Positions 27,886-51,710 of a stretch of 64,000 nucleotides of DNA are shown here, piece by piece. The position numbers and the translations under genes are program-made. Each line of letters opens with the position of its first letter. Position 1 is the first letter of the stretch. The notes under the pieces are model-generated. The model saw nothing but the letters and a program-made list of their open reading frames with translations. It was not told the origin of the DNA and made no database searches. Source of the stretch: Sulfuritalea sp. (GTDB taxonomy: Bacteria > Pseudomonadota > Gammaproteobacteria > Burkholderiales > Rhodocyclaceae). The stretch is taken from NCBI GenBank assembly GCA_030651305.1, contig JAUSCI010000056.1, positions 1 to 64,000 on the forward strand, given 5' to 3'.

Positions 27886-27893
27886 AGCCAACA

Positions 27894-28129: not shown

Positions 28130-30175
28130 ATGAGCGCGACGATCGGGACCCCGCTACTGCTCGCATACGGTGCCGCGGTTTGCACCTTGCTTTCGGGCGC
28201 CGTTTCCCTGCTGGCCGTGCGCCGCCACCCTGATTTCCTGCATTTCGGTTCCTTCCTGTTTCTGTTCTGCTCCGGTGCGGGCAGCATCGGCGCCGGCGGC
28301 TGGACCCTGCTCGCCAATCTCACCGTCACCGACCGATTCCAGCTCGGCCTGCCGTGGCTCGACTGGCATCTGCGGATCGATCCCCTGTCCGGCTTTTTCC
28401 TGGTGCTGCTCGGCACGCTGGTGGTCGCGATTTCGCTTTACGGCCCCAGCTACACGCGCGAATTCGGGCGCGGCAAAGCGGCGCAACCGCTGCCGCCGCT
28501 GGGGGTGTTCACAGCGCTGTTCGTCCTCGGCATGCAGATGATGCTGGTTGCCGATGACGCGCTGGTGTTCATGATCTTCTGGGAAATGATGTCGCTTTGC
28601 GGATATTTCCTGGTCGTCTATCAGCACCAGCATGCCGCCAATCGCCACGCCGCCTTTCTCTACCTGCTGCTGGCCCACGTCGGCGCCCTGGTCATCCTGC
28701 TTTCCTTTGGCGTACTCGCCGCCTTTGGCGGTGGTCTCACCTTCGACCAGATGCGCGCGGCCAAGCTGAGTCCGCTGTGGGCGACCATCGCCTTTGGCTG
28801 TGCCTTCGCCGGCTTCGGGACCAAGTCGGGCATGGTGCCGCTGCACGTCTGGCTGCCGGACGCGCACCCGGTCGCGCCGTCGCACATTTCGGCCTTGATG
28901 AGCGGCGCCATGATCAAGATGGGCATCTATGGCATCGTGCGACTCAGCTACGACCTGATCGGCAATGTGCGCTGGGAATGGGGCATGGTGGTACTCATCG
29001 TCGGCACCGCTTCGTCGCTGCTCGGCGTCCTTTACGCACTGATGCAACACGATCTCAAGCGCCTGCTTGCCTACCATTCGATCGAGAACATCGGCATCAT
29101 CCTGATGGGCCTCGGCTTGTCGATGATCTTCATCGGCAGCGGGCACAAGATGCTCGGCACCCTCGGTCTGGTGGCGGCGCTCTACCACACCATCAACCAC
29201 GCCCTGTTCAAGGGCCTGCTGTTCCTTGGCGCCGGCGCGGTGCTCTACCGGACGCATGCGCGCGACCTCGACCAGATGGGCGGACTGATTCATCGCATGC
29301 CGATTACGGCCTTCCTGTTCCTGGTCGGCTGTGTCGCGATCTCGGCACTGCCGCCGTTCAACGGCTTCGTTTCGGAATGGCTGACCTTCCAGACAGCCCT
29401 GCAGGGTCCCGCGCTGAAAGACGGTTTGCTGCGCACCATGATTCCGATTGCGGCGGCAATGCTGGCGCTTACCGGGGCACTGGCCGCTGCGTGTTTCGTC
29501 AAGGCCTTCGGCATTGCCTTTCTTGGCCAGCCGCGCACGCGCCGCGTCGCGCGCGCGCGCGAGGTGCCGGTCGGCATGCTGGCCGGCATGGGCTTGCTGG
29601 CGCTGCTCTGCCTGCTGCTCGGCGTGTTGCCGACGACCATGATCGAAGCCATGGCCCCCATCACGCAACTGCTGGTGCACGACGCGCTGCCCTCCGCCAC
29701 CGCCCAGGGCTGGCTGTGGCTGACGCCGATTTCACCGCAGGTGGCTTCATACTCGGCGCCGTTTGTCCTCGTCGCCATCATCCTGGTGTTCGGCCTGGGC
29801 CGCCTGATCCTCAAACGCGGCGCGGAACCGACGCGCAGAGCCGACGCCTGGGACTGCGGTTTTGGCCATCTGACGCAGCGCATGCAGTACACCTCGACGG
29901 CCTTCAGTCAACCGATCCGGCGCGTTTTCCGCGGCGTCTGGAAGGTCGAGGAGCACATCGAAACGCTTGCCGACGCGGGGTCGATCCCACGCGTAACGAG
30001 CCTTCACTACAGCGTGCACACCCACGACTGGGCCTGGCTCAAAGGCTACCTGCCGATCGGACGCACGGTGCTCGCCGCCGCCAATCGCATCGGCTTCATC
30101 CAGACCGGCAACATCCATACCTATCTGAAATTTTCCTTCGTCACGCTACTCACGTTCCTATGGATAGTCAGCTGA
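28130..30175 (+). CDS. hyfB: hydrogenase-4 subunit B-like (NuoL/MrpA-type) antiporter subunit, Ehr module 1
   Basis: A 681-residue polytopic membrane protein, the first of two proton-channel-type subunits of the complex. The NuoL/M/N core has the conserved ionisable sites: Lys in GFGTKSGMVPLHVWLPDAHP, Lys in LKRLLAYHSIEN, and His/Lys in ALYHTINHALFKGLLFL. The C-terminal part carries the HyfB-specific region with DAWDCGFGHLTQRMQYTSTA and a last helix. GGAG lies 8 bases before ATG. It opens a six-gene operon and overlaps the next gene by 16 bases. It is expected to translocate H+ or Na+ when coupled to the rest of the complex. Confidence 0.93.
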   Translation: MSATIGTPLLLAYGAAVCTLLSGAVSLLAVRRHPDFLHFGSFLFLFCSGAGSIGAGGWTLLANLTVTDRFQLGLPWLDWHLRIDPLSGFFLVLLGTLVVAISLYGPSYTREFGRGKAAQPLPPLGVFTALFVLGMQMMLVADDALVFMIFWEMMSLCGYFLVVYQHQHAANRHAAFLYLLLAHVGALVILLSFGVLAAFGGGLTFDQMRAAKLSPLWATIAFGCAFAGFGTKSGMVPLHVWLPDAHPVAPSHISALMSGAMIKMGIYGIVRLSYDLIGNVRWEWGMVVLIVGTASSLLGVLYALMQHDLKRLLAYHSIENIGIILMGLGLSMIFIGSGHKMLGTLGLVAALYHTINHALFKGLLFLGAGAVLYRTHARDLDQMGGLIHRMPITAFLFLVGCVAISALPPFNGFVSEWLTFQTALQGPALKDGLLRTMIPIAAAMLALTGALAAACFVKAFGIAFLGQPRTRRVARAREVPVGMLAGMGLLALLCLLLGVLPTTMIEAMAPITQLLVHDALPSATAQGWLWLTPISPQVASYSAPFVLVAIILVFGLGRLILKRGAEPTRRADAWDCGFGHLTQRMQYTSTAFSQPIRRVFRGVWKVEEHIETLADAGSIPRVTSLHYSVHTHDWAWLKGYLPIGRTVLAAANRIGFIQTGNIHTYLKFSFVTLLTFLWIVS

Positions 30176-31119
30176 TCGACTGGGTGCTCGCCGCGGCGCA
30201 AGGGCTGCTGTTCATTGCCGCGGCACCGCTGCTCGCCGGCTGGCTGCAGCGGGTCAAATGCCATTTGCAGAATCGCGGGGCGCCGTCGGTCTGGCAGCCT
30301 TACCGCAATCTGAGCAAGCTGATGGGCAAGCGGATGGTTCTCGCCGAAAACGCCTCATGGCTGTTCCGCGCCACGCCCTACATCGTCTTCGGTGCCACCC
30401 TGCTGGCCGCCGCCGTGGTGCCCCTGGTCGCGGTGCACCTGCCGACCGCCGCCATCGCCGACATGATCGTGCTGGTGGCGTTTTTCGCGCTGGCGAGGTT
30501 TTTCACCGCGCTGGCCGGCCTCGACATCGGCACGGCTTTCGGCGGCATGGGCGCCTCGCGCGAAATGATGGTCGGCGCGCTGGCCGAACCGGCCATGCTG
30601 ATGGCGGTGTTCACGCTGTCCATGACGGCAAACACCACCAATCTGTCGGTGGCGACCGAGTACCTGCTGCATGCCGGACTGGTGCTGCGCCCGTCCTTCC
30701 TGTTCGCCCTGCTGGCGCTGGCCATGGTCGCGGTGGCCGAAAGCAGCCGCGTGCCGGTGGACAATCCCGCCACCCACCTCGAACTCACCATGCTGCACGA
30801 AGCCATGATCCTCGAATACGGCGGTCGCCACCTGGCGCTGATCGAGTGGGCTTCGCAAATCAAGCTGATGATCTACTCGGTATTTATTGTCGATCTCTAC
30901 TTTCCGCTCGGCATCGCTACCGACTTCAGCGCCGCGTCCCTGGCGATCGGTGTCGTCGCGGTGACGGCGAAACTGATGCTGCTCGCCGTATTGCTGGTGG
31001 TGTGGGAGACGGTGCTGGCGAAGATGCGGCTGTTTCGCGTCCCACAGTTTCTCGGTTTTGCCTTCATGCTGTCCTTGCTCGGCATGCTGACCCACGTCGT
31101 GCTGGAGACTGGGATCTAG
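30160..31119 (+). CDS. hyfC: HyfC/NuoH-like membrane subunit, Ehr module 1
   Basis: A 319-residue membrane protein that anchors the hydrophilic arm, homologous to NuoH/HycD. The acidic quinone-chamber-like segment AESSRVPVDNPATHLELT followed by MLHEAMILEY is intact. I start it at ATG 30160 (MDSQLIDWVLAA), inside the end of the preceding gene; the same frame is open much further upstream, but only as the antisense-like shadow of the hyfB-type gene. The stop codon is directly followed by the next ATG. Confidence 0.92.
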   Translation: MDSQLIDWVLAAAQGLLFIAAAPLLAGWLQRVKCHLQNRGAPSVWQPYRNLSKLMGKRMVLAENASWLFRATPYIVFGATLLAAAVVPLVAVHLPTAAIADMIVLVAFFALARFFTALAGLDIGTAFGGMGASREMMVGALAEPAMLMAVFTLSMTANTTNLSVATEYLLHAGLVLRPSFLFALLALAMVAVAESSRVPVDNPATHLELTMLHEAMILEYGGRHLALIEWASQIKLMIYSVFIVDLYFPLGIATDFSAASLAIGVVAVTAKLMLLAVLLVVWETVLAKMRLFRVPQFLGFAFMLSLLGMLTHVVLETGI

Positions 31120-31845
31120 ATGGAATTCGCCAGCCTCAGTTTGTTTAACCAGGCCATCATCCTGTTCGCGGCGCTGGCCTTGTTCATGTCTTTCATCATG
31201 CTCGCCCAGGCGCGCATGATGCCGCTGATATTTACCTTCGCCTGGCAGGGCTTGCTACTGACGATGGTCTCGGTGCTGGTCGCCATCGCTTCCGGCCATC
31301 CCCACCTGCATATTTCGGCGGCGATCACCTTTTGCCTGAAGGTGGTCGTGATCCCGTGGTTGCTCTACCGACTCAGCGCAAAACTCAACATGCAATATGA
31401 CGCCGAGGCAATCACGCATCCGACGCTGCTGCTGCTCGGCGGCGTGGCCCTGGTGATCTTCAGTTACCACGTGTCGCAGTCGATCGTGCACCTGTCGGGA
31501 CTGGCGACGCGCAATACGATTGCCGTCAGCATGGCCATAGAACTGCTGGGCATGCTGCTGATGATTGCGCGCAAGTCGGCGGTAGCGCAGGTGATCGGCT
31601 TCATGTCGATGGAGAGCGGAATATTCTTTGCCGCGGTGGTATCCACCTACGGCATGCCGCTGATCGTCGAACTGGGTCTGGCCTTCGACATTCTGGTCGC
31701 CTCGATCCTGTTCGGCGTGTTCTTCTTCCATCTGAAAGACTCTTTCGGCTCGCTTAACGTCGGCCAGTTCAACCGCCTGTCGGAAGCGAACCAGCCCATG
31801 CCGTCGCCCGAAGCCGCCGAACCTGCGCCCGGAGAGCGTTCGTGA
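31120..31845 (+). CDS. hyfE: hydrogenase-4 component E-like membrane subunit, Ehr module 1
   Basis: A 241-residue membrane protein of the HyfE family, whose C-terminal part is NuoK-like. Several helices are evident, with GFMSMESGIFFAAVVSTYG, typical of the family, near residue 170 and a hydrophilic Pro/Glu-rich tail after about residue 205. The start codon abuts the stop of the hyfC-like gene and the end overlaps the hyfF-like start by 4 bases (GTGA). It probably forms a proton path next to the NuoH-like subunit. Confidence 0.9.
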   Translation: MEFASLSLFNQAIILFAALALFMSFIMLAQARMMPLIFTFAWQGLLLTMVSVLVAIASGHPHLHISAAITFCLKVVVIPWLLYRLSAKLNMQYDAEAITHPTLLLLGGVALVIFSYHVSQSIVHLSGLATRNTIAVSMAIELLGMLLMIARKSAVAQVIGFMSMESGIFFAAVVSTYGMPLIVELGLAFDILVASILFGVFFFHLKDSFGSLNVGQFNRLSEANQPMPSPEAAEPAPGERS

Positions 31846-33311
31846 CTCTGCTCGAAATCACGCTGCTGATACCGCTGCTCGGAGGCCTGCTGCTGGCACT
31901 CGTCGGCCATCGCCCGATCGCCGGCTGGATCAACATTGCCGTCGGCGTAATGACCTTCGGCGCCGCGCTGGCCATGGCGCTGGAAGTCCTGGACCATGGC
32001 CCGCAACTCTCCCCCAGCCGCATGTTCTACATCGACGCCTTCAATGTTTACCTGGTGGTGTTGACCGCCTTTGTCGGCTTGACAACGTCGATCTTTTCGC
32101 GCCCCTACATGCGCCATGAAGTCGAACGCGGGCGCGTCACGAGCCGGCGCCTGCGCCTGTACCACGCGATGTACCAGTGCTTCCTGTTCTCGATGCTGCT
32201 GGCGCTGTCGACCAACAACCTCGGCATTCTCTGGATCGGGATGGAGCTGGCCACCCTGACCACCGTGCTGCTGGTCTCGCTGTACCGCACGCCGGAGGCA
32301 ATCGAAGCGGCGTGGAAGTATTTCATCCTCTGCGGCGTCGGCATCGCCCAGGCGCTGTTCGGCACCGTGCTGATCTATTTTGCCGCCGAGACCAAATTTG
32401 GCGCGGGCCGCGATGACACGTTGCTGTGGACCGTGCTGCATGAATCGGCGGGCGGCATGGACCCGGCAGTGATCACGCTGGCCTTCGTCTTCCTGCTGGT
32501 CGGCTATGGCACCAAGGTCGGCCTGGTGCCGCTGCACAACTGGCTGCCGGATGCACACTCCGAAGGTCCGACACCGATGTCCGCGGTGCTCTCCGGCCTG
32601 CTGCTCAACGTCGCGCTGTATGCCCTGGTGCGGGTCAAGATGCTGGTCGATGGCTCGCTGCATACCAACCTCGCCGGCAACCTGATGATGGGCTTCGGCT
32701 TGCTTTCCTTCACCGTCGCCGGCCTGTTCCTGCACCGCCAGCACGATGTCAAGCGCATGTTCAGCTACTCCTCGATCGAGCACATGGGCCTGATCACCTT
32801 CGGCTTCGGCATGGGCGGGCCGCTCGCCACGTTTGGCGCATTGCTGCACATGACCGTGCACTCGCTGACCAAGTCGGCGATCTTCATTACCGTCGGCCAT
32901 GCCTGCCAGCTCGCCGGCACGCAGCGCATCACGCAGATTCGCGGCCTGATCCGCACCCAGCCCGCGATCGGCTGGGGCTTGCTGCTCGGCACCGTGGCGA
33001 TCGCCGGCTTCCCGCCCTTCGGCGTGTTCATCAGCGAGTTCCTGCTGCTGATGGCGACCATGAAGACCTGGCCGTGGCTGACGATTCCGCTACTGGCCGG
33101 CTTCGGCGTGGCCTTCGGCGGGCTGTTTCGGCACATGCAGCAGATGGTCTTCGGCGAGCCGCCGCCGGGGCAGAAGCCGGTCGAGGCCAACATGCTGCCG
33201 GTGGTGGTGCACCTGCTGCTGGTGCTCTGGCTCGGGCTGGCCATTCCGGGATTCCTGTCGCGCTGGTTCGAGCAGGCCACGGTGCTCATCACGGGGGCGT
33301 CGCCACTATGA
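31842..33311 (+). CDS. hyfF: hydrogenase-4 component F-like (NuoM/N-type) antiporter subunit, Ehr module 1
   Basis: A 489-residue membrane protein, the second antiporter-like subunit. It begins with GTG at 31842, overlapping the preceding stop. Functional sites are visible: Glu in GMELATLTTVLLVSL, Lys in GYGTKVGLVPLHNWLPDAHS, Lys in VKRMFSYSSIEHMG and His/Lys in HMTVHSLTKSAIF. Length fits HyfF. The end overlaps the large-subunit gene by 4 bases (ATGA). With the HyfB-like subunit, the complex has two antiporter modules, as in hydrogenase 4 but without a HyfD gene. Confidence 0.92.
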   Translation: MTLLEITLLIPLLGGLLLALVGHRPIAGWINIAVGVMTFGAALAMALEVLDHGPQLSPSRMFYIDAFNVYLVVLTAFVGLTTSIFSRPYMRHEVERGRVTSRRLRLYHAMYQCFLFSMLLALSTNNLGILWIGMELATLTTVLLVSLYRTPEAIEAAWKYFILCGVGIAQALFGTVLIYFAAETKFGAGRDDTLLWTVLHESAGGMDPAVITLAFVFLLVGYGTKVGLVPLHNWLPDAHSEGPTPMSAVLSGLLLNVALYALVRVKMLVDGSLHTNLAGNLMMGFGLLSFTVAGLFLHRQHDVKRMFSYSSIEHMGLITFGFGMGGPLATFGALLHMTVHSLTKSAIFITVGHACQLAGTQRITQIRGLIRTQPAIGWGLLLGTVAIAGFPPFGVFISEFLLLMATMKTWPWLTIPLLAGFGVAFGGLFRHMQQMVFGEPPPGQKPVEANMLPVVVHLLLVLWLGLAIPGFLSRWFEQATVLITGASPL

Positions 33312-34906
33312 CGCCGCGCGATCAACTCGCCGCCTTTCCGCGCCGCCTCGCCGACATCGGCGTGCGCGTTGAAGCTCGGGAGTCGCCCGGTTTGGCGCCG
33401 GCGCAACTCATCCTGGTCAAGCCCGGCGACTGGAGCCGGCTCGGCATCGAGGCCCGCAGCTGGGGCTGCCGCTGGGTGGCGAGCTGGGGCGAGGAGGTGG
33501 ATCAGGCGGGCGGCACGGTGATCCGCGTCAACACCTGCTTCGAGCACGGCGGCGCCTACCTGGTGGCGCGTACCGCGGTACCGCGCGCCGCGCCGGTCCT
33601 GGCGTCCCACACCACGTCCTATCCCGGCGCAGACCGTCCCGAGCGCCACATCCGTGACATGCTGGGCGTGGTCTACTCCGACCACCCGGACGCACGCCGC
33701 TGGACGCGCCATCAGGCATGGACGCAAGCCGAGTGTCCCTTGCGCCGGGATTTCCCGGCGGCCGGTTCGCCGCCGGCGCGCACCGCGGCCGATTACCAAT
33801 ACAACTTTTTGCTGGCGCAGGGCGGCGGCGTCTACGAAATACCCGTCGGACCGGTGCACGCCGGCATCATCGAGCCCGGGCACTTCCGGTTTCAGGCGGT
33901 GGGCGAGACGGTGCTCAAGCTCGAAGAACGCCTCGGCTACACCCACAAGGGCATCGAGAAGATTGCCGAGGGCCGCGATGCAGAAGGACTGGCGCGACTG
34001 GCCGCTCGGGTCTCGGGCGATTCAACGGTGGCGCATGCCTGGGCGGCCTGCATGGCGATGGAGCAGGCGGCCGGCCTCGACGTACCGTCGCGCGCCGTCT
34101 GGCTGCGCGCCCTGATGTGCGAGCGCGAACGCGTCGCCAATCATGTCGGCGACAACGGCGCGATGCTCAATGACATCGCCTTCGCCTTCGGTTTCTACCA
34201 GTTCGCCCGGCTGCGCGAGATGTGGCAGCGGGTCTCGCGCGAGGCCTTCGGCCACCGCTTCATGATGGATTGCATCGTCCCCGGCGGCGTCGCGACGGAC
34301 CTGGACCCGCGTTTCATTGCCACTATGCGCGACGAAGCCCATGCCTTGGGCCAGCAGATCGGCAAGCTGATGGCCATCATCAACGATCTGCCCTCGGTCG
34401 CCGACCGCGTGCGCGGTACCGGCGTGCTCAAGCCCGAACACGCCAGGGCGCTGGGCTGCGTCGGCTATGTCGGGCGCGCCTCGGGCATGGATTTCGACGT
34501 GCGGCGCGATGCACCCTACCCACCCTATGACAAGCTGACTTTCGCCGTGCCGCTCCATCACTATGGCGACGTCAATGCGCGGGCGCGGATGCGGCTCGAG
34601 GAAATCACCACCTCCCTGGATCTGATCGAGGCGCTGCTGAACGGGCTGCCCGCGGGACCGATTCGCGCCGCCTGGATGCATCCGGCGGCGGACACCGAAG
34701 GGCTCGGCCTGGTCGAGGGCTGGCGCGGCGAGATCCTGAGTTTCGTCCGCTTCGGCGCCAACGGGCGAATCGCGCGCTTTTTCCCACGCGACCCGTCGTG
34801 GACCACCTGGCCGGCACTCGAACTGCTGATCCACGACAACATCGTTCCCGACTTTCCCGTCTGCAACAAGTCGGTGAACGGCTCGTATTCCGGACACGAC
34901 CTCTAA
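33308..34906 (+). CDS. NuoC/NuoD-type large subunit without NiFe-binding cysteines, Ehr module 1
   Basis: A 532-residue protein like HyfG/HycE: an N-terminal NuoC-like domain to about residue 165, then a NuoD/large-hydrogenase domain. Where NiFe hydrogenases have RxCGxC near the start of that domain, this protein reads ARVSGDSTVAHAWA (Ser236-Gly-Asp-Ser239). The C-terminal DPCxxC motif is PDFPVCNKSVNGSYSGHDL, with a single cysteine (about 519). The four Ni ligands are therefore absent, which defines an energy-converting hydrogenase-related (Ehr) protein and not a hydrogenase. The substrate or electron donor is unknown. The preceding gene overlaps by 4 bases and the small subunit follows after 3. 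Confidence 0.93.
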   Translation: MTPRDQLAAFPRRLADIGVRVEARESPGLAPAQLILVKPGDWSRLGIEARSWGCRWVASWGEEVDQAGGTVIRVNTCFEHGGAYLVARTAVPRAAPVLASHTTSYPGADRPERHIRDMLGVVYSDHPDARRWTRHQAWTQAECPLRRDFPAAGSPPARTAADYQYNFLLAQGGGVYEIPVGPVHAGIIEPGHFRFQAVGETVLKLEERLGYTHKGIEKIAEGRDAEGLARLAARVSGDSTVAHAWAACMAMEQAAGLDVPSRAVWLRALMCERERVANHVGDNGAMLNDIAFAFGFYQFARLREMWQRVSREAFGHRFMMDCIVPGGVATDLDPRFIATMRDEAHALGQQIGKLMAIINDLPSVADRVRGTGVLKPEHARALGCVGYVGRASGMDFDVRRDAPYPPYDKLTFAVPLHHYGDVNARARMRLEEITTSLDLIEALLNGLPAGPIRAAWMHPAADTEGLGLVEGWRGEILSFVRFGANGRIARFFPRDPSWTTWPALELLIHDNIVPDFPVCNKSVNGSYSGHDL

Positions 34907-34909
34907 ATC

Positions 34910-35434
34910 ATGCTGCGCATCCTCGGTAAAATCCAGCGCCTCGGCATCGTCACCGAACAGTTGCCGGAGATCGGCGAGCCCGCGCTGACCGCAATCGGCG
35001 AGCAACTGAAGGCGCACATCGGCGAGCGCTTCGGCGGCAGCCTGGCCATCCGCGAAGTGGACGCGGGCTCCTGCAACGGCTGCGAACTGGAAGTCCAGGC
35101 GCTGAACAACCCTCTCTACAGCATCGAACGCTTCGGCGTACATTTCGTCGCCAGCCCGCGCCACGCAGACATGCTGCTGGTCAGCGGCCCGGTTTCGCGG
35201 CACATGGAAACGGCGCTGCTCCGCACATACGAGGCCACGCCGGAACCGCGGCTGGTCATCGCGGTCGGCGAGTGCGGCGCCTGCGGTGGCGAATTCGGCA
35301 TCAGCTACGCCTCGTGCGGCGCGGTATCAAATGTCATCCCGGTCGATGCCGTCATCCGCGGCTGCCCGCCGACGCCGATCAATCTCATGCGCGGCATCCT
35401 GGAGGCCATCGCCAAGCGTTCTCCGGGTGGTTGA
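34910..35434 (+). CDS. NuoB/HyfI-type small iron-sulfur subunit, Ehr module 1
   Basis: A 174-residue small subunit with one [4Fe-4S] cluster like complex I cluster N2. Cysteines are in VDAGSCNGCELEV (55 and 58), GECGACGG (122 and 125), YASCG (136) and RGCPPTPINLM (152); the family's four ligands are covered. It is the last gene of module 1. No HyfA- or HyfH-type ferredoxin subunit is in the operon, so how electrons enter is unclear. The C-terminus (LMRGILEAIAKR) matches the relic upstream of the first gene of this operon. Confidence 0.93.
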   Translation: MLRILGKIQRLGIVTEQLPEIGEPALTAIGEQLKAHIGERFGGSLAIREVDAGSCNGCELEVQALNNPLYSIERFGVHFVASPRHADMLLVSGPVSRHMETALLRTYEATPEPRLVIAVGECGACGGEFGISYASCGAVSNVIPVDAVIRGCPPTPINLMRGILEAIAKRSPGG

Positions 35435-36039
35435 CGCTTGGCCGGAGATTGCACCGACTCCTGATTGAGCTAACCGGATTTCGTGATTGACAATATGCTG
35501 GCAATGCACAATTCCATAGGATTGAAACTTGGGGCAAAACTGGTCGTCGCAGTTCGGCCACTATGCACTGTTCGCAACTATGTGCAGATCGCAGGAGTAA
35601 AGCCGTGGCGATTCAGGCGGGGTGTTGCCGCTGGCGAGGAGCACCAGTGGGAATCTGTACATAGTTTCCCCGTCAGAGAGCACGGGGATGCATTTGCGAC
35701 GGACCGCCGACAAGGGTAATGCATTTGCGATCCAAGTTAAGCGCCGAAGCGCCTGTCACCGCCACCACCCTGCATGAAGATATGAGGCATTCCCGCGTAA
35801 TCGAGGAAACTGTGGCTGAATCTGGATTGCGTTTGTACAGAATTGAACCTCCTGCGAATACAACAGTGGCGTTGACCAAAACAACGCCACGGGATTTCCA
35901 TGCGCTTAGAATGGATTCTAGACGCGTAGGCACTTAGCGCGTCGATCAATTTTGCGATGAGACAATTCGACAAGATTCGCTGAGGCGCCAGAGATATCTT
36001 GGTTCCTTGGTCGGATGCACAGATGCGTGGATCATCAAT
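35435..36039. other. 605-bp gap without a convincing gene
   Basis: The composition is visibly less GC-rich than the flanking operons. ATGCATTTGCGA is repeated directly, 31 bp apart (starting near 35688 and 35719). One frame from 35719 is open for 72 codons, but it has no good ribosome binding site and resembles nothing I know. The gap probably holds the promoter of the hybrid kinase gene. Confidence 0.5.
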
Positions 36040-39000: not shown

Positions 39001-39501
39001 GAGAGCACGCCAGGGGTGGGCAGCACCTTCTGGTTCACCGCGAGGCTGAAGAAGGGTGACGAGGTAGTCGTAACGCCTCCGGTGATGCATGCCAACGCGG
39101 AGACGGCAATCCGCGAGCGCTATGCAGGCCGCTGCATTCTGGTCGCCGACGACGAGCCGATCAACCTGGAAGTCGCCCAGATTCAGCTGAAGGCGGCCGG
39201 TCTGGCCGTAGATACGGCACAGAATGGCGCAGAGGCCATCGCCCTGGCGCGAAAGACGGCCTATGCGGCCATCTTCATGGACATGCAGATGCCGAACATA
39301 AACGGGCTCGAAGCAACCCGGCAGATCCGCGAGATGCCCGGATACCGGCAAACACCCATCATTGCCATGACCGCCAACGCCTTTGCCGAGGACAAGGCAC
39401 GCTGCTTCGAGGCAGGGATGAATGACTTCCTGATCAAACCCTTCGACCCCGAGACGCTATATGCGATCCTGCTGCGCGAACTGGATCGGCAAGAGGCGTA
39501 G
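36040..39501 (+). CDS. hybrid sensor histidine kinase with Cache, HAMP, three PAS and receiver domains
   Basis: A 1153-residue membrane kinase. Helix 1 is at about 15-38; a periplasmic Cache-type ligand-binding domain follows to about 285 ([20 protein letters not shown], then [20 protein letters not shown]), then helix 2 and HAMP. Three PAS/PAC units span about 365-760. The HisKA phosphorylation site is His788 in [16 protein letters not shown], and the ATPase has [22 protein letters not shown] and [11 protein letters not shown]-terminal receiver has Asp1081 in [15 protein letters not shown]. No HPt domain is present. Translation probably begins at ATG 36040; a TTG 33 bases earlier is in frame. 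It sits between the two Ehr operons, but nothing proves a functional link. Confidence 0.92.
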
Positions 39502-39664: not shown

Positions 39665-39691
39665 TCGCCGTATCGCCAGCGCCGACTTTTG
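39665..39691 (+). repeat. dispersed 25-nt repeat, copy 6
   Basis: TCGCCGTATCG then CCAGCGCCGACTTTTG, in the 232-bp gap between the hybrid kinase and the end of Ehr module 2, 43 bases beyond the stop of the small-subunit gene. The rest of the gap holds no gene. Confidence 0.7.
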
Positions 39692-39733
39692 TCAGTGGGC
39701 CTTCAATGGCGTCCGACGGACACGGATGCCGCC

Positions 39734-40255
39734 TTATTTCTGACTGCGGATCGCCGTCAGGATGCCGCTCAGCAGATCCAGCGGCGGCGGCGGACAACCC
39801 GGTACCGCGACATCGACCGGAATCACGTTCGACACCTTGCCGCAGCTCGCATAGCTTTCGCCGAAGATGCCGCCGGTACAGCCGCAATCGCCGACCGCGA
39901 CCACCAGTTTGGGCGCCGGCATGGCCGCATAGGTGCGCTGCAGCGCCACCATCATGTGCCGCGAAACCGGGCCGGTAACCAGCAACATGTCGGCATGGCG
40001 CGGGCTGGCAACGAACTTGATGCCCAGCCCTTCGATGTTGTAGTAGGGGTTGTTGAGGGCGTTGATTTCGAGTTCGCAGCCGTTGCAGGAACCGGCATCG
40101 ACTTCGCGGATGGTCAGCGCGCGGCCGAGGATGGCGAGGATCTCGGCGTGAATACGCTCACCCTCGGCCCGCTCCACGCGCCAGTCGTCATTGCCCTGCG
40201 GCGTTGCTTCAGTACGCAGGCCGGTTCTGACAATCTGCTTGAGCATGGTCCACAT
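39734..40255 (-). CDS. NuoB/HyfI-type small iron-sulfur subunit, Ehr module 2
   Basis: A 173-residue paralogue of the module 1 small subunit. Cysteines for the N2-like [4Fe-4S] cluster are in VDAGSCNGCELEI (57 and 60), GDCGCTGGIFGESYASCG and PGCPPPPLD. The first 35 residues differ completely from module 1. It is the last gene of module 2, about 100 bases after the large-subunit gene; that gap holds a CCCCTTGAGGGG hairpin and no gene. It probably conducts electrons from an unidentified donor to the membrane arm. Confidence 0.92.
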   Translation of the reverse strand: MWTMLKQIVRTGLRTEATPQGNDDWRVERAEGERIHAEILAILGRALTIREVDAGSCNGCELEINALNNPYYNIEGLGIKFVASPRHADMLLVTGPVSRHMMVALQRTYAAMPAPKLVVAVGDCGCTGGIFGESYASCGKVSNVIPVDVAVPGCPPPPLDLLSGILTAIRSQK

Positions 40256-40352
40256 CAGCGTATCGACCTCATAAGAAACTCGCCGGGCCGCCCCAAGCGT
40301 TTCTTGCCCCTTGAGGGGAGAACCGAGCGAAGCGAAGGTTTGCGGGGTGGGC

Positions 40353-41909
40353 TCACAGATCCTGCCCCGAATAGCTGAGATTGAACGACTTGTTGATCAG
40401 CGGAAAATCCGGAACGATGTTGTCCATCACCGCATGTTCCAGCAGCGGCCAGTTCTGCCACGAGGGGTCATGGCAATGACAGCGGCGGATGCTGCCCGCC
40501 TCCAGTTCCAGCGTCACCAGCACGTCGCCGCGCCAGCCCTCGACCCAGCCGGCGCCGATGCCGTTGGCGGGCAAGGCGTCGAGTGGGACTAGCGACCTGC
40601 CCTGCGGCAGGCGGGCGATGATCTCGCGGATCAGGCGCAGCGACTCGAAGATTTCCTCGAAGCGCACCGTCACTCGCGCCGCCACGTCGCCGTTGCGGTG
40701 GCTGGTCATGACGGCTTGCAAGGCCGCGTAGGGCTCCCAGGTGAAATCCATGCGCAGGTCGCTGGCCTGCGCGCTGGCCCGGCCGGCCATGCCGCACAGG
40801 CCGAGCTGCCCCGCCAGCCTGGGTGAAACCCGCCCGGTGGTGAGGAAGCGATCCTGCAGGCCGCCATGCTCTTCGTAGATATCCTTCAGTGTCCGCACTT
40901 CGGCCTCGATCGCATCGCATTGGCTGCGGATGCGTTCGCCCCTCGCCACATCGAGATCAATGGCAACACCACCGGGAACAATCCGGTCCATCATGAAGCG
41001 GTGGCCGAACAGTTCGCGATTCAGCCGCAGCCAGTCCTCCTTGAGTCGCGAGAACTGGGCCAGACCGAAACCCAGCGCCGCATCGTTGCCCAGCGCACCT
41101 AGATCGCCCAGATGATTGGCCACCCGCTCGCGCTCCAGCAGCAGGGCGCGCAACCAGCGCGCGCGCCACGAAATCTCGCAGCCGGCCATCGATTCGAGCG
41201 CCATGCAATAGGCCCAGCCAAAAGCCACCGTCGTATCACCGGAAACGCGCCCGGCCAGACGATGTCCTTCCAGCGGCGCGGTGCGCTCGAACAGCTTTTC
41301 GATGCCCTTGTGCTTGTAACCCAGGTGCTGTTCCAGCCGCAATACGCGCTCGCCGACCACCGAAAAGCGGAAGTGCCCCGGCTCGATGATTCCCGCGTGA
41401 ACCGGACCGACCGCTATCTCGTGCACGCCGTCGCCCTCGACCATGACGAAGGGGTAGGACTCGGGGGTCGCGGCGAACGACTCGGCACCGGTATTCTCCC
41501 GGCGCAAGGGAAAATAGTCCTCCGGCCAGGCGCCATGCCGCAACCACGGGCGCTGGTCCTTCACTTCCTCGGCCACCAGGCCCATCAGATCGCGACAGGC
41601 GCGCTGCATGCGCCCCGCCGCGGGAAAGACCCTTGCGATGTCGGGATAGGACGGTTGCACCGGAGCCAGGGTCTCGGCCAGGGGTAAACTCAGCCAGACC
41701 AGGCCTTCGGCCATCGCGTAGGCAACCGAAACGGCAAAGCCGCCGTCAATCCCGCGCCGGTCGGAACCCCACAGCGAAACCAGCCGGCCGCCGACCAGAT
41801 CAACCGCCGCCGGCGCTGCCTGCCATTGTTCGCGCGTCACCGTGGCGCGCTGCATCGGCAGCGGCCCGGGCACAGCCTGAAATTGGCAATTGAGTGCGGA
41901 GAGCGACAT
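40353..41909 (-). CDS. NuoC/NuoD-type large subunit without NiFe-binding cysteines, Ehr module 2
   Basis: A 518-residue paralogue of the module 1 large subunit. The position of the first NiFe motif reads GRVSGDTTVAFGWAY (Ser223-Gly-Asp-Thr226). The C-terminal motif is VPDFPLINKSFNLSYSGQDL, with no cysteine at all. Both Ni-binding pairs are missing, so it cannot be a hydrogenase. Conserved family blocks remain: VGPVHAGIIEPGHFRF, HLGYKHKGIEKL and RERVANHLGDLGALGND. Retention of these around a lost metal site suggests a quinone-like or other cofactor pocket as in NuoD. It is 5 bases downstream of the hyfF-like gene. Confidence 0.93.
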   Translation of the reverse strand: MSLSALNCQFQAVPGPLPMQRATVTREQWQAAPAAVDLVGGRLVSLWGSDRRGIDGGFAVSVAYAMAEGLVWLSLPLAETLAPVQPSYPDIARVFPAAGRMQRACRDLMGLVAEEVKDQRPWLRHGAWPEDYFPLRRENTGAESFAATPESYPFVMVEGDGVHEIAVGPVHAGIIEPGHFRFSVVGERVLRLEQHLGYKHKGIEKLFERTAPLEGHRLAGRVSGDTTVAFGWAYCMALESMAGCEISWRARWLRALLLERERVANHLGDLGALGNDAALGFGLAQFSRLKEDWLRLNRELFGHRFMMDRIVPGGVAIDLDVARGERIRSQCDAIEAEVRTLKDIYEEHGGLQDRFLTTGRVSPRLAGQLGLCGMAGRASAQASDLRMDFTWEPYAALQAVMTSHRNGDVAARVTVRFEEIFESLRLIREIIARLPQGRSLVPLDALPANGIGAGWVEGWRGDVLVTLELEAGSIRRCHCHDPSWQNWPLLEHAVMDNIVPDFPLINKSFNLSYSGQDL

Positions 41910-41914
41910 TCAGG

Positions 41915-43369
41915 TCATCCTGCAATCATTTTGGCCGCCTGCTGGTACCAGCCCAACAGATATGGCGGAATGTAGAGGCCCAGCATCAGGCCCAGGCCGA
42001 GATGAGCAAACACCGGCAGAATCGCGGGCGGATGCTCCAGCGGCTTCAAGTCGGTGTCGCCAAATACCATCTCCTGGACGCGGCTGAAGATCGAGGCGAA
42101 GGCCACGCCCAGTGCCAGCAAGAGGAAGGGCGTCGCCCACGGCAGATCACGCATCGCCGTGGTCAGAATCAGGAATTCGCTGGCAAAAACGCCGAAGGGC
42201 GGCATGCCGAGGATCGCCAGCGTACCCAGCAGCATTCCCCAGCCGACCATGGGGTTGACCTTGATCAGCCCGCGAATTTTTTCCATCAGTTGGGTGCCGG
42301 CACTCTGCGTCGCGTGTCCGACCGCGAAGAAGATGGCCGACTTGATCAGCGAATGGACGGTCATGTGCAGCAGGCCGGCAAAGTTGGCAACCGGCCCGCC
42401 CAGACCAAAGGCAAAAGTCATCAGGCCCATATGCTCGATCGAGGAATAGGCGAACATGCGTTTGACATCCTTCTGCCGCGAAAGAAAAAATGCCGCGGCC
42501 ACCACCGAGAGCAGGCCGAAGCCGATCATCAGGTTGCCGGCCAGATGGTTGTGCAACGCCCCATCGGTGAGCACCTTGCAGCGCAGGACGGCGTACAACG
42601 CAACGTTGAGCAGCAGTCCCGAGAGCACCGCCGAAATCGGCGTCGGACCTTCGGCATGGGCATCGGGCAGCCAGTTATGCACCGGCACCAGGCCGACCTT
42701 GGTACCGTAACCCAGGAGCAGAAAAACAAAGGCCAGTGCCATGACATTGGGTTCGAGCTGACCCTTCACCGCATCCAGGTTGGTCCATAACAGGGCGCCG
42801 CCGCCGGCCCCGATCACCTTGTCGGCGGCGAGGTAGAGCAGGATGGTGCCGAATAGCGCCTGAGCGATGCCGACACCGCACAGAATGAAATACTTCCATG
42901 CGGCTTCGAGGCTGGCCGCAGTGCGATAGACGCTGACCAGCAGCACGGTGGTCAGCGTTGCCGCCTCCATCGCCACCCAGAGGATGCCCAGATTGTTGGT
43001 CGACAAGGCCACCAGCATGGTGAAGTTGAACATCTGGTACATGCTGTGATACAGACGCATCCGCTTCGGCGTCATCTTGCCGTGATCGCGCTCGACGCGC
43101 ATGTAGGGACGCGAGAACACCGATGTGGTGAAGCCGACAAAAGCGGTCAGCGCAATCAGGAAAACGTTGAGCGGATCGACAAAGAACTGGTCGTCGAGGA
43201 CCACCATCGGTCCGCCATCGATGATTCGGGAAGTCAGGAAACCGGCGGCGATCAGGGTACAGAGGCTGACGCCGACGTTCACCTCGGGCGCGCAATCGCG
43301 ATGCCCGCACAAGGCCAGAACGAAGCCGCCGAGCAGGGGGATGGCGAGAACAAGCAGCAGGTATTCCAT
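41915..43369 (-). CDS. hyfF: hydrogenase-4 component F-like antiporter subunit, Ehr module 2
   Basis: A 484-residue NuoM/N-type subunit. Key residues are conserved: Glu in AMEAATLTTVLLVSV, Lys in GYGTKVGLVPVHNWLPDAHA, Lys in VKRMFAYSSIEHMG and His/Lys in HMTVHSLIKSAIFF. It is clearly paralogous to the module 1 protein along the entire length. It lies 6 bases after the hyfE-like gene and 5 bases before the large-subunit gene. Confidence 0.92.
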   Translation of the reverse strand: MEYLLLVLAIPLLGGFVLALCGHRDCAPEVNVGVSLCTLIAAGFLTSRIIDGGPMVVLDDQFFVDPLNVFLIALTAFVGFTTSVFSRPYMRVERDHGKMTPKRMRLYHSMYQMFNFTMLVALSTNNLGILWVAMEAATLTTVLLVSVYRTAASLEAAWKYFILCGVGIAQALFGTILLYLAADKVIGAGGGALLWTNLDAVKGQLEPNVMALAFVFLLLGYGTKVGLVPVHNWLPDAHAEGPTPISAVLSGLLLNVALYAVLRCKVLTDGALHNHLAGNLMIGFGLLSVVAAAFFLSRQKDVKRMFAYSSIEHMGLMTFAFGLGGPVANFAGLLHMTVHSLIKSAIFFAVGHATQSAGTQLMEKIRGLIKVNPMVGWGMLLGTLAILGMPPFGVFASEFLILTTAMRDLPWATPFLLLALGVAFASIFSRVQEMVFGDTDLKPLEHPPAILPVFAHLGLGLMLGLYIPPYLLGWYQQAAKMIAG

Positions 43370-43375
43370 CGCGGG

Positions 43376-44038
43376 CTAGTCTTCCTTGAGTTTTTCCAGA
43401 TGCCGGATATCGAGGCTGTCGAACTGCTCGCGGATTTGGAACATGAACACGCCGAGAATGAACACGCCGACCAGCACGTCGAAGGCAATGCCGAACTCGA
43501 CCACCATCGGCATGCCATAGGTGGCGGACGTGGCGGCAAAGAACAGGCCGTTTTCCATCGACAGGAAGCCGATCACCTGCGGCACCGCCTTGGCCCGCGT
43601 GATCATCATCATGAAGGACAGCAGCACGCAGGCCAACGCAATGCCAAGCGTGCTGTGGGCAATTGACGAAGACAGCTTGGCGATCGGCAGCGCCAGGTTG
43701 AAGGCGAACACCACCAGCAGGATGCCGATCAGCATGGTGGTCGGAATATTGATCAGCGTCTCGACGTCCCATTTGACATTGAGGCGGTCGATCAAGCGGT
43801 GCAACAGGATCGGGATGACGATCACCTTGGTCACCAGGGTTATCGCGGCCGAGTAGTAAAGATGGTGTTGATTGGTGACGTAGGCGACCACCACGGTCGC
43901 CGCGACCAGCGTCGCCCCTTGCAGGGTGAACAAATGAATCACCGTCAGAATGCGTCGCTGCGACAGCATGGCGAAGGACAGCAGCAGCAGCACCGAGGCA
44001 AACAGGTTGATGGACTGGATCAGGTAGGCGTGCATCAT
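43376..44038 (-). CDS. hyfE: hydrogenase-4 component E-like membrane subunit, Ehr module 2
   Basis: A 220-residue HyfE-type membrane protein, with GFLSMENGLFFAATSATYG near residue 155 and a charged C-terminal tail (QFDSLDIRHLEKLKED). The frame is open far upstream, but only as a shadow of the hyfC-like gene; ATG at 44038 overlaps that gene's stop by one base (TGATG), which decides the start. An adjacent in-frame ATG at 44035 is an alternative. Confidence 0.9.
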   Translation of the reverse strand: MMHAYLIQSINLFASVLLLLSFAMLSQRRILTVIHLFTLQGATLVAATVVVAYVTNQHHLYYSAAITLVTKVIVIPILLHRLIDRLNVKWDVETLINIPTTMLIGILLVVFAFNLALPIAKLSSSIAHSTLGIALACVLLSFMMMITRAKAVPQVIGFLSMENGLFFAATSATYGMPMVVEFGIAFDVLVGVFILGVFMFQIREQFDSLDIRHLEKLKED

Positions 44039-44985
44039 CACGAACCGAGCAGGAGATGCACCAGCATGCCGATCACCGCCAGCATGAAGGCGGTGGCAAG
44101 AAATTCCGAAACGCGGAAAATGCGCATTTTGGCGCTGGCGGTCTCGATCAGCGCCATCGTCGCGCCGCCGATGGCCAGTTTGAATACCAGCATGGGCAGC
44201 GCCAGCAGCATCTCCTCCGGCGAGCCCACTTCGGCGATGCCCCAGGGAAAGAACAGCGTGAGACCGATGCAGGAATAGGCAAACAGCTTGAGGCTGGCGG
44301 CCCACTCCATCAGCGCGAGATGGCGGCCCGAATACTCCAGGATCAGCGCTTCGTGGATCATAGTCAGTTCCAGATGGGTGGACGGATTGTCGACCGGAAT
44401 GCGTGCGTTCTCGGCCAATGCCACCATGGTGAACGCAATGCCGGCGAAGGCCATGCTCGGATAGATGACGAACTCGCGGTGGGCCAGCGTCTCGACGATG
44501 CTGGTGAGCGACGTCGACTGCGTGATCAGGGAGGCCGAGAACAGCACCATCAGCAACGCCGGTTCGGCGAGAAAACCGATCAGCATCTCGCGGCGCGCGC
44601 CGAGACTGCCGAAAGCGGTGCCGATATCCATCGCCGCCAGGGAAATGAAGACGCGGGCGAAGGCGAACAGCCCCACCAGAGCGATGGCGTCGGCCGCCGG
44701 CGACAGCGGCAAGTCGGTGGACAAGGTGGGAATGATGGCGCTGGCCATGACCATGCAGCCGAAGACGATATACGGCGCGACGCGAAACAACTGCGAGGCG
44801 TGCTCGGCAACCACCGATTCCTTGTGGAACAACTTGCGCAGCATCCGGTATTGCAGGAGCAGACTCGGCGCCGACTTGTTCTGCAGCCAGGCCCGGCACT
44901 GGTTCGCCCAGCCCGTCAGGAGCGGCGCCAGCAGCAGGGCGGCAACGATTTCCAGCAACTGGGAGAAGACGCCCGACCAGCTCAT
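44038..44985 (-). CDS. hyfC: HyfC/NuoH-like membrane subunit, Ehr module 2
   Basis: A 315-residue membrane anchor subunit. The diagnostic NuoH/HycD segment appears as AENARIPVDNPSTHLELTMI then HEALILEYSGRH, and the opening MSWSGVFSQLLEIVAALLLA is a membrane helix. It overlaps the hyfB-like gene by 4 bases and the hyfE-like gene by 1. It pairs with the NuoB/NuoD-like arm and would transmit the redox-driven conformational change to the antiporter subunits. Confidence 0.92.
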   Translation of the reverse strand: MSWSGVFSQLLEIVAALLLAPLLTGWANQCRAWLQNKSAPSLLLQYRMLRKLFHKESVVAEHASQLFRVAPYIVFGCMVMASAIIPTLSTDLPLSPAADAIALVGLFAFARVFISLAAMDIGTAFGSLGARREMLIGFLAEPALLMVLFSASLITQSTSLTSIVETLAHREFVIYPSMAFAGIAFTMVALAENARIPVDNPSTHLELTMIHEALILEYSGRHLALMEWAASLKLFAYSCIGLTLFFPWGIAEVGSPEEMLLALPMLVFKLAIGGATMALIETASAKMRIFRVSEFLATAFMLAVIGMLVHLLLGS

Positions 44986-47009
44986 AGTCTCACCAGCACC
45001 AGCATGGCAATCAGGGTGACGAAGCTGTACAGCAGATAAACCGAAATGCGCCCCTGCTGCAAGCGCCCGACGAGCTTGGCCACCGCTTCCGTCGTCGCCG
45101 CGATCGGCAGGTAGATCCAGTGCCAGAAATGATCATCGACGCTGACGCTGTAGACCGGCTTCTCGTCGAAGGGCGTGGGATGCTTGATGTCCATGCGGAA
45201 GAAGGGATCGAACATCCTGCGGATCGGCTGACCGAAGCCCTCGGCGGTGTCCTGCATGCGCGCGTTGCCGGCCGGGTAGCCGCAATCCCAGGGCGCGGCG
45301 CGACGCAACTGGCCGCGATAGAGCAAGCGCACCATGATGACAGCCAGGTAGAAGCTCGCGGCTCCGACGACAAGAAACACCAGCGGCGCGTAACTGGCCC
45401 GCTCGACAGACATCGGCGCCAGCAGGAACCAGCCATTGGCGCGAACGGTGTCGGCCAGGTTGTGCCCGATCAGAAGCGCCGTGACACGACCGATCGGCTC
45501 GATGATCTGCACCGGAAACAGGCCGAGCACAAGACAGCCGGCCACCAGCCAGAGCAGTCCCGCCCGCTCCAGCCAGCCGGCATCATGCGCCTGGGCCAGC
45601 TTGGCCTCGCGTGGCTGCCCGAGGAATATCACGCCAAAGAACTTGACCATGGCGAACCCAGCCAGCGCCGCCACCAGTGCCACGGCCGCCGCCACCACCG
45701 GGATCAGCATGTTGAGGAAGGGATCGGGCAGGCCCGGCGTGAACAGGAAGCTTTGCAACAGCAGCCACTCGGAAACAAAACCACCGAACGGCGGCAGACC
45801 GGAACTGGCCAGCACCCCGACCAGAGTGACCCAGGCCACCCAGGGCATGTAGCGCATCAGGCCGCCCAGGCGACCCAGGTTGCGTTCGCCCGTGGCATGC
45901 AGCACCGAACCGGTGCCGAGGAACAGCAGGCTCTTGAAAAAGGCGTGGCTGGCGACGTGATAGAGGCAGGCGGTGAGCGCCAGGGCCGCCAGCGCGTCCA
46001 TGTGGTAGGCCTTGAACAGAACGCCGAGTCCCATGCCGACACAAAGCAAGCCTATGTTCTCGATCGAAGAATAGGCCAGCAGGCGCTTCATGTCGGTCTG
46101 CACGGCGCTGAAGATGACACCGAACAGGGCGGTGACCAGACCCAGGGCAAGCAGGATCACGCCCCACCACCACAACTGCATTTGCAGGAGATCGAAACTC
46201 ACCCGCAGCAAACCGTAGATCGCCGTCTTCAGCATCACGCCGCTCATCAGCGCTGAAACCGGCGAGGGCGCTGCCGGGTGCGCCTCGGGCAGCCAGATGT
46301 GCAAAGGCAGGATGCCGGCCTTGGCGCCGAAACCGAACACCGCAAGCAGAAACGCGGCCGAGGACCAGAAAGACGAGAGCTGCTGGCCGCGCATGTTGTC
46401 AAAGGTGTAGTCGCCGGTGTTCGCCTGCAACACGCCGAAGCAGAGCAGGATGGCGATGGCGCCGATGTGCGCGATCAGCAGGTAGAGATAACCGGCACGG
46501 CGAATCGCGGCAATACGGTGATTGCTGGTGACCAGGAAGAACGAGGACAGCGCCATGGTTTCCCACATCACCATGAACGCGTAGGCGTCGTCGGCCAGCA
46601 CCACCAGCACCATGCTCGTCAGAAAAAGGTGGTACTGAAAACATAGCAGGCCCGGCGGCGTGCCTTCGCCCTTGCGGAAGTAGCCGGCGGCAAAAATAGA
46701 CACGCCGGCGCCGACACTGCCGATCACCGCAATGAACAGGGCCGAAAGTGCGTCTAACCGGAGATGGAAGGGAAGGCCGGGCAGGCCCAGCGGCAGTACC
46801 GCCGTCTCGGGCGATTCGAATATCGCCGACAGCGCGACCAGAAAAACGCCAAGGCAGACCAACCCGCCGAGGGGGAACAAAACGTGTGAAACGAAGCGGA
46901 AGCGCCGCAGCGCGAAGATGCCGAGCGCACCCACGACGAGCCAGGCGCCACACAGCAACAGCAGCCAGTCGAGATGGAGCAGGCTGGCTAACACTTTAGC
47001 AGGAGGCAA
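44982..47009 (-). CDS. hyfB: hydrogenase-4 subunit B-like (NuoL/MrpA-type) antiporter subunit, Ehr module 2
   Basis: A 675-residue membrane subunit. Conserved sites are Lys in GFGAKAGILPLHIWLPEAHP, Lys in MKRLLAYSSIENIG, and His/Lys in CLYHVASHAFFKSLLFLG; the HyfB-type tail has APWDCGYPAGNARMQDTAEG. The first possible start is a TTG at 47009 without an obvious ribosome binding site; a GTG a few codons later is an alternative, so the N-terminus is uncertain. First gene of module 2, 159 bases downstream of the SulP gene on the same strand, so read-through from the SulP operon is possible. Confidence 0.9.
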   Translation of the reverse strand: MPPAKVLASLLHLDWLLLLCGAWLVVGALGIFALRRFRFVSHVLFPLGGLVCLGVFLVALSAIFESPETAVLPLGLPGLPFHLRLDALSALFIAVIGSVGAGVSIFAAGYFRKGEGTPPGLLCFQYHLFLTSMVLVVLADDAYAFMVMWETMALSSFFLVTSNHRIAAIRRAGYLYLLIAHIGAIAILLCFGVLQANTGDYTFDNMRGQQLSSFWSSAAFLLAVFGFGAKAGILPLHIWLPEAHPAAPSPVSALMSGVMLKTAIYGLLRVSFDLLQMQLWWWGVILLALGLVTALFGVIFSAVQTDMKRLLAYSSIENIGLLCVGMGLGVLFKAYHMDALAALALTACLYHVASHAFFKSLLFLGTGSVLHATGERNLGRLGGLMRYMPWVAWVTLVGVLASSGLPPFGGFVSEWLLLQSFLFTPGLPDPFLNMLIPVVAAAVALVAALAGFAMVKFFGVIFLGQPREAKLAQAHDAGWLERAGLLWLVAGCLVLGLFPVQIIEPIGRVTALLIGHNLADTVRANGWFLLAPMSVERASYAPLVFLVVGAASFYLAVIMVRLLYRGQLRRAAPWDCGYPAGNARMQDTAEGFGQPIRRMFDPFFRMDIKHPTPFDEKPVYSVSVDDHFWHWIYLPIAATTEAVAKLVGRLQQGRISVYLLYSFVTLIAMLVLVRL

Positions 47010-51708: not shown

Positions 51709-51710
51709 CA

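Follow-up and report, generated by a model that had tools for sequence, protein, structure and literature searches.

The 64,000-nucleotide stretch of Sulfuritalea sp. DNA analyzed here (the window; part of contig C23 of a 3.9-Mb genome) carries two facing energy-converting hydrogenase-related (Ehr) modules, one of which shares its gene row with a SulP-STAS anion transporter. From the sequences of this locus and its relatives, we propose with a probability of roughly one half that Ehr is part of an inorganic-carbon uptake system together with SulP; the exact mechanism is less certain. What is new is the linkage of Ehr to SulP and carbon genes, the Ehr family itself being already known. Ehr complexes are widespread (at least 575 relatives were confirmed in our genome scan), and their recurrent linkage to SulP, and in places to carbonic anhydrase and RuBisCO, makes a role in carbon uptake directly testable.

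Two Ehr modules with a replaced NiFe site

Each module comprises six genes in the order B-C-E-F-large-small, at 28130-35434 on the forward strand (module 1) and 39734-47009 on the reverse strand (module 2), and the module 2 gene row runs on to 49715. Translations, Pfam, and NCBIfam agree with a preliminary description of this DNA, made from the letters alone, that gave both sets these boundaries and a hydrogenase-4 plan; in NCBIfam, the B and F proteins of each module pass the cut-offs of hydrogenase 4 subunit families. The genes are as follows (here and below, G-numbers denote relatives' genomes and L-numbers relatives' Ehr loci).

28130..30175, +, EhrB1, HyfB/NuoL-like antiporter subunit (NF005086 hydrogenase 4 subunit B, 831 bits, cut-off 667)
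30160..31119, +, EhrC1, HyfC/NuoH-like (translation; alignment with HycD, HyfC, and NuoH)
31120..31845, +, EhrE1, HyfE-like (NF008556, 76 bits, under the cut-off of 136)
31842..33311, +, EhrF1, HyfF-like antiporter subunit (NF005045, 761 bits, cut-off 543)
33308..34906, +, EhrL1, large subunit, 30-kDa plus 49-kDa fusion without NiFe ligands (Pfam, alignment)
34910..35434, +, EhrS1, small subunit with four cluster cysteines (PF01058)
39734..40255, -, EhrS2, small subunit (PF01058)
40353..41909, -, EhrL2, large subunit (Pfam; AlphaFold2 model; PDB structure match)
41915..43369, -, EhrF2 (NF005045, 901 bits, cut-off 543)
43376..44038, -, EhrE2 (translation; tblastn and alignment with relatives)
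44038..44985, -, EhrC2 (PF00146)
44982..47009, -, EhrB2 (NF005086, 906 bits, cut-off 667)
47169..49301, -, SulPa, SulP-STAS anion transporter directly 5' of ehrB2 (PF00916, PF01740; TIGR00815 above cut-off)
49311..49715, -, 134-aa protein adjoining SulPa (no match in Pfam or NCBIfam; kept beside SulPa in G006, G008, and G023)

Ehr complexes are defined by a group-4-hydrogenase-related large subunit that lacks the NiFe ligands and by a 4Fe-4S small subunit encoded with antiporter-like subunits in one putative operon; both modules have both features, in line with their earlier assignment to Ehr. Neither set contains a HyfA-, HyfH-, or HyfD-like gene, and the maturation gene HypD is not in the window, again in keeping with the first description: the genome's one HypD match is on contig C72, and its NiFe-hydrogenase matches above cut-off are on contigs C36 and C72, not on the Ehr contig.

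EhrL1 and EhrL2 are 46% identical, and each joins the 30-kDa and 49-kDa types of complex I subunit in a single chain. Alignment of the two with HycE, HyfG, and NuoCD, a comparison that the preliminary description had proposed, revealed no NiFe ligands and upheld its reading that the Ni-binding cysteines are lost. HycE ligands C241, C244, C531, and C534 (E. coli HycE and HyfG aligned) correspond in Ehr to Ser, Ser/Thr, Ser, and Gly, the first motif reads SGDS at 236-239 in EhrL1 and SGDT at 223-226 in EhrL2, and the CxxC ... CxxC pattern of group 4 [NiFe] hydrogenases is found in neither. The C-terminal motif had been said to hold one or no cysteine; loss of the ligands stands there too, but C519 of module 1 is not at a ligand position, and neither protein has a ligand cysteine.

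The replacement is strictly conserved. The motif R-x-S-G-D-S/T ... S-Y-S-G-x-D-L-end marks the site, with rare departures, in 84 Ehr large subunits, the two of the window and 82 drawn from 79 of 80 named-record loci (70 after thinning at 80% identity). The four former ligand positions hold S (68/70), S or T (69/70), S (68/70), and G (70/70), and D225, which lies between the first two of them, N506, and K507 are each present in 70/70. Because this new motif is so strictly kept, simple decay of the NiFe site is ruled out, and the site appears to have been rebuilt and retained; as predicted from these alignments, the former NiFe pocket is a conserved Ser/Asp/Thr/Lys site. When the set is widened to 105 sequences, a few individual rows deviate from the Ehr motif and three carry RVCGICGF: HycE, HyfG, and one protein from a relative's genome that, judged by this motif, is evidently a true hydrogenase. 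In the alignment the EhrL chain stops opposite HycE R537, which we take to be the last residue left after maturation cleavage, and the C-terminal extension of group 4 hydrogenases is absent. The tyrosine and histidine of the complex I (NuoD-type) quinone site are likewise missing from the Ehr large subunit: an invariant Gly occupies the column of E. coli NuoCD residue 273, presumably the quinone-site tyrosine, and NuoCD has a gap beside the Ehr GII segment. An AlphaFold2 model of EhrL2 (mean predicted local distance difference test score, 90.3; below 50 for tail residues 513-518) best matches formate hydrogenlyase HycE in the PDB (7z0s_E; TM-score of 0.91 by query length, 27% identity).

The small and membrane subunits retain what an ion pump would need, and alignments of relatives bear out the earlier observation that the antiporter lysines and N2-type cysteines are intact. 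The N2-type cluster cysteines (55, 58, 122, and 152 in EhrS1; 57, 60, 124, and 154 in EhrS2) are 100% conserved in 43 small-subunit representatives. In module 1 numbering, EhrB E152, K232, K263, and K310 (44 representatives) and EhrF E135, K304, H340, K344, and E399 (30 representatives) are 98 to 100% conserved, and EhrC has Ehr-specific histidines, H202 and H209. Both modules are, as far as sequence can tell, Ehr complexes, that is, predicted complex-I-type ion pumps with one predicted [4Fe-4S] cluster.

SulP transporters beside Ehr

The SulP neighbor of module 2 went unmentioned in the preliminary description, and it recurs across relatives. Among the 80 loci retained from the genome scan, 13 carry SulP no more than 3 kb 5' of, or within, the Ehr operon (one on the opposite strand, one cut by a contig end), and one further locus holds a decayed SulP fragment; with the same SulP hidden Markov model, a further 81 kb of upstream and 463 kb of downstream sequence from these 80 loci gave no match. 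We also drew 300 genomes evenly from the host's order, of which 77 have Ehr, yielding 79 loci from 76 genomes (host left out). SulP lies within 4 kb upstream in 20 of the 67 order loci having at least 1.5 kb of upstream sequence, and SulP matches number 22 in 269 kb upstream (some cut by stretch ends) versus 1 in 596 kb downstream. Loci with this arrangement come from the Methylococcales, other Gammaproteobacteria, the Geobacteraceae, and several families of the host's order, and on the large-subunit tree the SulP label must change at least 9 times (78 labeled rows, 24 with SulP, selected genus loci included).

In two loci the transporter gene is inside the operon. It stands between ehrF and the large-subunit gene in Methylocaldum (L083), with overlapping stop and start, and between the large and small genes in a Geobacteraceae locus (L092), where it is BicA-like. 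An apparent EhrF-SulP fusion in L083 was rejected: the long frame crossed ehrF in another frame, and SulP is separate, with a TTG start overlapping the ehrF stop. Ehr-linked SulP proteins span different subfamilies. Within the host genus (the window plus 15 of 30 relatives), SulPa is next 5' of ehrB2, or 2.2 kb off in G022, in 15 of 16 loci, with G028 the exception; this count is biased because 10 of the 15 relatives were chosen after SulP listing.

Carbonic anhydrase and carbon-fixation genes

In some relatives, and not in the window, Ehr is also linked to genes for carbonic anhydrase, RuBisCO, or carboxysomes. The fullest arrangement, in G050, runs SulP, kinase/regulator, SulPa-ehr, CsoSCA-like gene, GGDEF/EAL gene, CbbR-like gene, rbcL-rbcS, and CbbO-like gene (a label that rests on gene position and a VWA domain), and G262 has the same gene plan. 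G306 has a carboxysome cluster (CsoS2, BMC, and CcmL domains) and a CbbO-like gene extending up to ehrS, as rbcS- and CbbO-like genes do in G193. RuBisCO or carboxysome-cluster genes thus lie within about 9 kb in 4 of the 79 order loci, and among the matches listed, RuBisCO is within about 25 kb on the Ehr contig in G267, G178, and G069.

The CsoSCA-like gene is found in 16 of the 300 order genomes, 7 of which have Ehr; in 6 of these 7, from three families, it lies within about 7.5 kb of ehrS (exception, G205), against a chance expectation below 0.1 in seven genomes of about 3 Mb (simple arithmetic, in which kin are not independent). Its product passes the cut-off for the Pfam CsoSCA catalytic domain (30.8 bits, cut-off 21.5), fails that of NCBIfam (39 bits versus 241), and bears a weak likeness to solved CsoSCA (E = 6e-5). 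CMDGR and the His-Cys spacing, which we assume to mark the zinc and catalytic residues, are present in every one of the six copies examined. Members of this CsoSCA-like beta-carbonic anhydrase family (about 353 aa) near ehrS are at L158:1312-2370 (-) and L156:16292-17362 (-) and in L159, L166, L223, and L235. Within the host genus the gene is present in 4 of 31 genomes: between ehrS and the flavin mononucleotide (FMN) dehydrogenase gene in G025, about 15 kb from Ehr in G023, on another contig in G014, and in G003, which has no intact Ehr match. Geobacteraceae locus L079 has, 1.4 kb downstream of ehrS, a match of the classical Can type; Can matched only L079 and L158 among 208 sequences searched.

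At the genome level, form I/II RuBisCO occurs in 55 of 77 Ehr genomes versus 58 of 223 others (odds ratio, 7.1), and in 18 of 19 SulP-linked versus 28 of 46 unlinked informative Ehr genomes (P = 0.0065, kinship ignored). The host has one RuBisCO match, of form II, beside a fructose-bisphosphatase gene and a CbbR-like regulator gene (320 bits, below the cut-off of 450) on contig C13.

Proposed function and alternatives

In the proposed system, a reaction at the cluster and the remodeled pocket would drive outward proton transfer through EhrC, EhrE, EhrF, and EhrB, and the proton gradient, or direct contact, would power SulP to take up bicarbonate; carbonic anhydrase and RuBisCO would act downstream where present. 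We infer that bicarbonate is the SulP substrate and that electrons enter the single cluster from a soluble donor; the outward direction of pumping and a physical contact between Ehr and SulP are presumed in the same way.

The proposal draws on the recurrent gene linkage, on the conserved pocket, cluster, and channel residues, on the frequency of RuBisCO among SulP-linked Ehr genomes, on the retention of SulPa and the FMN dehydrogenase within the genus across an exchange of the Ehr core, and on the form II RuBisCO of the host. Several observations weigh against it. No full SulP stands beside Ehr in 67 of the 80 scanned loci and 47 of the 67 informative order loci, and adjacency of carbonic anhydrase was seen in only three families, in two of which RuBisCO, cbb, or carboxysome genes are also close. 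SulP proteins as a family transport varied anions, and SulPa reaches 130 of the 880 bits of the NCBIfam BicA equivalog cut-off, falling far short of it while passing the cut-off of the general sulP subfamily; it scores closer to plant sulfate transporter 4.1, its nearest match in the PDB, than to BicA. In the host, RuBisCO is on a different contig from Ehr, and a search of the genome found no CsoSCA-like gene. Form I/II RuBisCO is lacking in 22 of the 77 Ehr genomes, and NifH, taken as a control, has odds ratios of 25 with RuBisCO and 8.4 with Ehr. Stratifying by NifH leaves an Ehr-RuBisCO odds ratio of 4.7; the control weakens RuBisCO co-occurrence as proof of a carbon role, and co-occurrence is therefore largely a matter of lifestyle, so that the case rests on physical linkage.

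Much of this would suit a general pump, redox-driven and moving protons or sodium, that keeps pH or ions in balance, beside which SulP would be a pH-linked anion exchanger or a sulfate or dicarboxylate importer and the RuBisCO linkage a mark of host lifestyle. The retained antiporter residues fit such a pump, as do the lifestyle confounding exposed by NifH, the likeness of SulPa to transporter 4.1, and the Ehr genomes without form I/II RuBisCO. It fits less well with a CsoSCA-like gene near ehrS in nearly every genome that has both, across three families, and with a BicA-like SulP inside the L092 operon, and we regard it as rather unlikely, if a serious contender. We give distinctly less credence to an Ehr that reduces quinone with electrons supplied by a soluble oxidoreductase, for example formate dehydrogenase. 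Neither set includes a gene for formate dehydrogenase or electron entry, no such family appears among the commonest Pfam families of the neighboring genes scanned (the top 25 of 79 and of 181), and the quinone tyrosine of complex I aligns with the invariant Gly. The fully conserved cluster cysteines speak for this scheme, and a pairing of formate dehydrogenase with Ehr has been proposed for Margulisbacteria and Saganbacteria, according to excerpts of PMC6349859. Those same cysteines argue against a complex without redox chemistry that itself hydrates CO2 vectorially, like DAB2, through the rebuilt pocket or a bound carbonic anhydrase. Absent electron-entry subunits, the new polar pocket, the adjoining carbonic anhydrase of some relatives, and the DAB2 precedent (excerpts of PMC13144422) speak for it, but no zinc-type ligand set was recognized in the pocket, and we consider it very unlikely.

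Origin of the facing pair

The two modules fall in separate Ehr subfamilies on the large-subunit tree. Relatives have the FMN dehydrogenase gene and ehrS2 side by side and converging (125 bp apart in G010); module 1 and a sensor kinase gene separate the two in the window (27810-39734). An 18-bp repeat with one mismatch, at 27819 and 39674, marks both edges of the inserted stretch, and three CTGATCCAGCAC repeats occupy 27894-27933. The nearest relative of module 1 is a G010 module (90% in the large subunit) that is on another contig, not between those two genes, and the DNA upstream of module 1 is common to G010 (80% over 375 bp). The facing pair is therefore a derived arrangement, with module 1 inserted between resident module 2 and the FMN dehydrogenase gene. 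Two diverged copies had been thought to suggest distinct partners: the separate subfamilies, and SulP as partner of module 2, are in keeping with this, but module 1 is an insertion with no partner in the window. SulP does accompany some module 1 relatives. Tandem Ehr pairs also occur in L040, L114, and G163.

The resident core also changed. Identity to the SulPa of the window is 75 to 83% in 14 of the 15 same-genus relatives, G028 reaching only 34%, and for the FMN dehydrogenase it is 79 to 89% in the 13 whose stretch covers the gene, whereas the six Ehr proteins are 84 to 95% identical in G004, G007, and G010 and 55 to 74% in the other 12, two groups that the tree sets in different clades. 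It follows that the Ehr core was exchanged between a constant SulPa and FMN dehydrogenase. The in-place exchange groups are L119, L121, L122, and L157 versus L134, L135, and L147-L156.

Other features of the locus

26619..27809, +, FMN-dependent (lactate-dehydrogenase-like) gene, ancestral neighbor of ehrS2 (PF01070; NF008398 above cut-off; synteny)
27851..27886, -, remnant similar to ehrS2 at its 3' end, on the left border of inserted module 1 (36 bp matching the G010 ehrS2 end at 92%)
36007..39501, +, hybrid sensor histidine kinase with dCache, PAS, HisKA, and receiver domains (Pfam)
50154..53066, +, histidine kinase and sigma-54 response regulator pair (Pfam; kept near SulP/Ehr in several relatives)
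53229..55418, +, SulPb, second SulP-STAS transporter (Pfam)
55643..58216, +, SulPc, SulP-STAS fused to universal stress domains (Pfam)

SulPa and SulPb have an insertion of well over 100 residues between the SulP domain halves, where the Pfam match is split. GGDEF/EAL-type signaling genes flank the locus at 22049-26400 and 58845-60191 (by Pfam for 22049-23896 and 58845-60191, by translation only for 23908-26400). Kinase and sigma-54 regulator pairs like that at 50154-53066 recur by Ehr/SulP in L057, L062, L066, L067, L072, and L075, and the regulators of gammaproteobacterial loci are 34 to 37% identical to that of the window. The sigma-54 promoter consensus has 12 matches in the window versus 15.8 expected by chance, which lends no support to such promoters.

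Pfam scans of relatives' neighborhoods (82 upstream genes, 103 of 111 downstream genes, and 7 of 14 genes inside operons) also found PTS EIIA/helix-turn-helix genes (6/82 upstream) and DUF2490 genes (7/103 downstream); tRNA-synthetase neighbors (3/82 upstream) were put down to plain synteny. Geobacterales-type loci L071, L079, L092, and L097 have two Ehr-like sets or extra ehrB-like genes adjacent, the L071 set being very divergent (35%).

Comparison with known systems

Ehr complexes were reportedly named by Marreiros et al. in 2013. They have no established function according to the portions of PMC6349859 and PMC10284858 consulted, portions that make no mention of SulP. Our modules share with them the group-4-hydrogenase-like subunits, the antiporter subunits, and the lack of NiFe ligands and differ in that two subfamilies are adjacent and SulP is in the gene row. 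The subunit plan is that of E. coli Hyf/Hyc, and HycE (7z0s) is the best PDB match of the large subunit, but Ehr lacks the NiFe cysteines, counterparts of HyfA, HyfH, and HyfD, and the C-terminal extension. Among literature titles and abstract openings searched, none joins Ehr with SulP or carbon concentration, nor does such a link appear in the excerpts at hand of PMC6458275, PMC6349859, PMC10284858, PMC8115632, PMC12810054, PMC10880623, PMC13144422, and PMC12628692.

SulPa belongs to the same superfamily as the SulP bicarbonate transporter BicA, to which the Geobacteraceae Ehr-linked SulP is alike, but it is nearer to sulfate transporter 4.1 by score and has Glu where BicA has Asp (spacing compared by eye), a position to which we assume a role in BicA. 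SulP is also found near carboxysomes in Thiomicrospira pelophila, as given in part of PMC12628692. Like Ehr, DAB/DAC (DabA-DabB) has a NuoL-like membrane subunit, there tied to inorganic-carbon uptake (PMC13144422 and PMC12628692, in part); in contrast, Ehr is built of six subunits with a predicted Fe-S cluster, and DabA (PF10070) has no match in the host genome.

Cyanobacterial NDH-1MS with CupA-CupB is a complex-I-type machine that serves CO2 uptake, the role proposed here for Ehr, and it has a separate origin. NDH-1MS and CupA-CupB are named in the excerpt of PMC6458275. It is a tentative step beyond our main proposal, and one we hold with less confidence, that Ehr may be a third complex-I-derived carbon-concentrating machine beside NDH-1MS and DAB, in which a hydrogenase with a rebuilt NiFe pocket and a SulP bicarbonate transporter would form a single working unit, joined in some lineages by a CsoSCA-like carbonic anhydrase of its own and by RuBisCO or carboxysomes. 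Were Ehr to help cells gather carbon, this would be the third recruitment of the complex I/hydrogenase family to carbon concentration, here outside the cyanobacteria, in lineages that include methanotrophs, purple sulfur bacteria, and the host's order.

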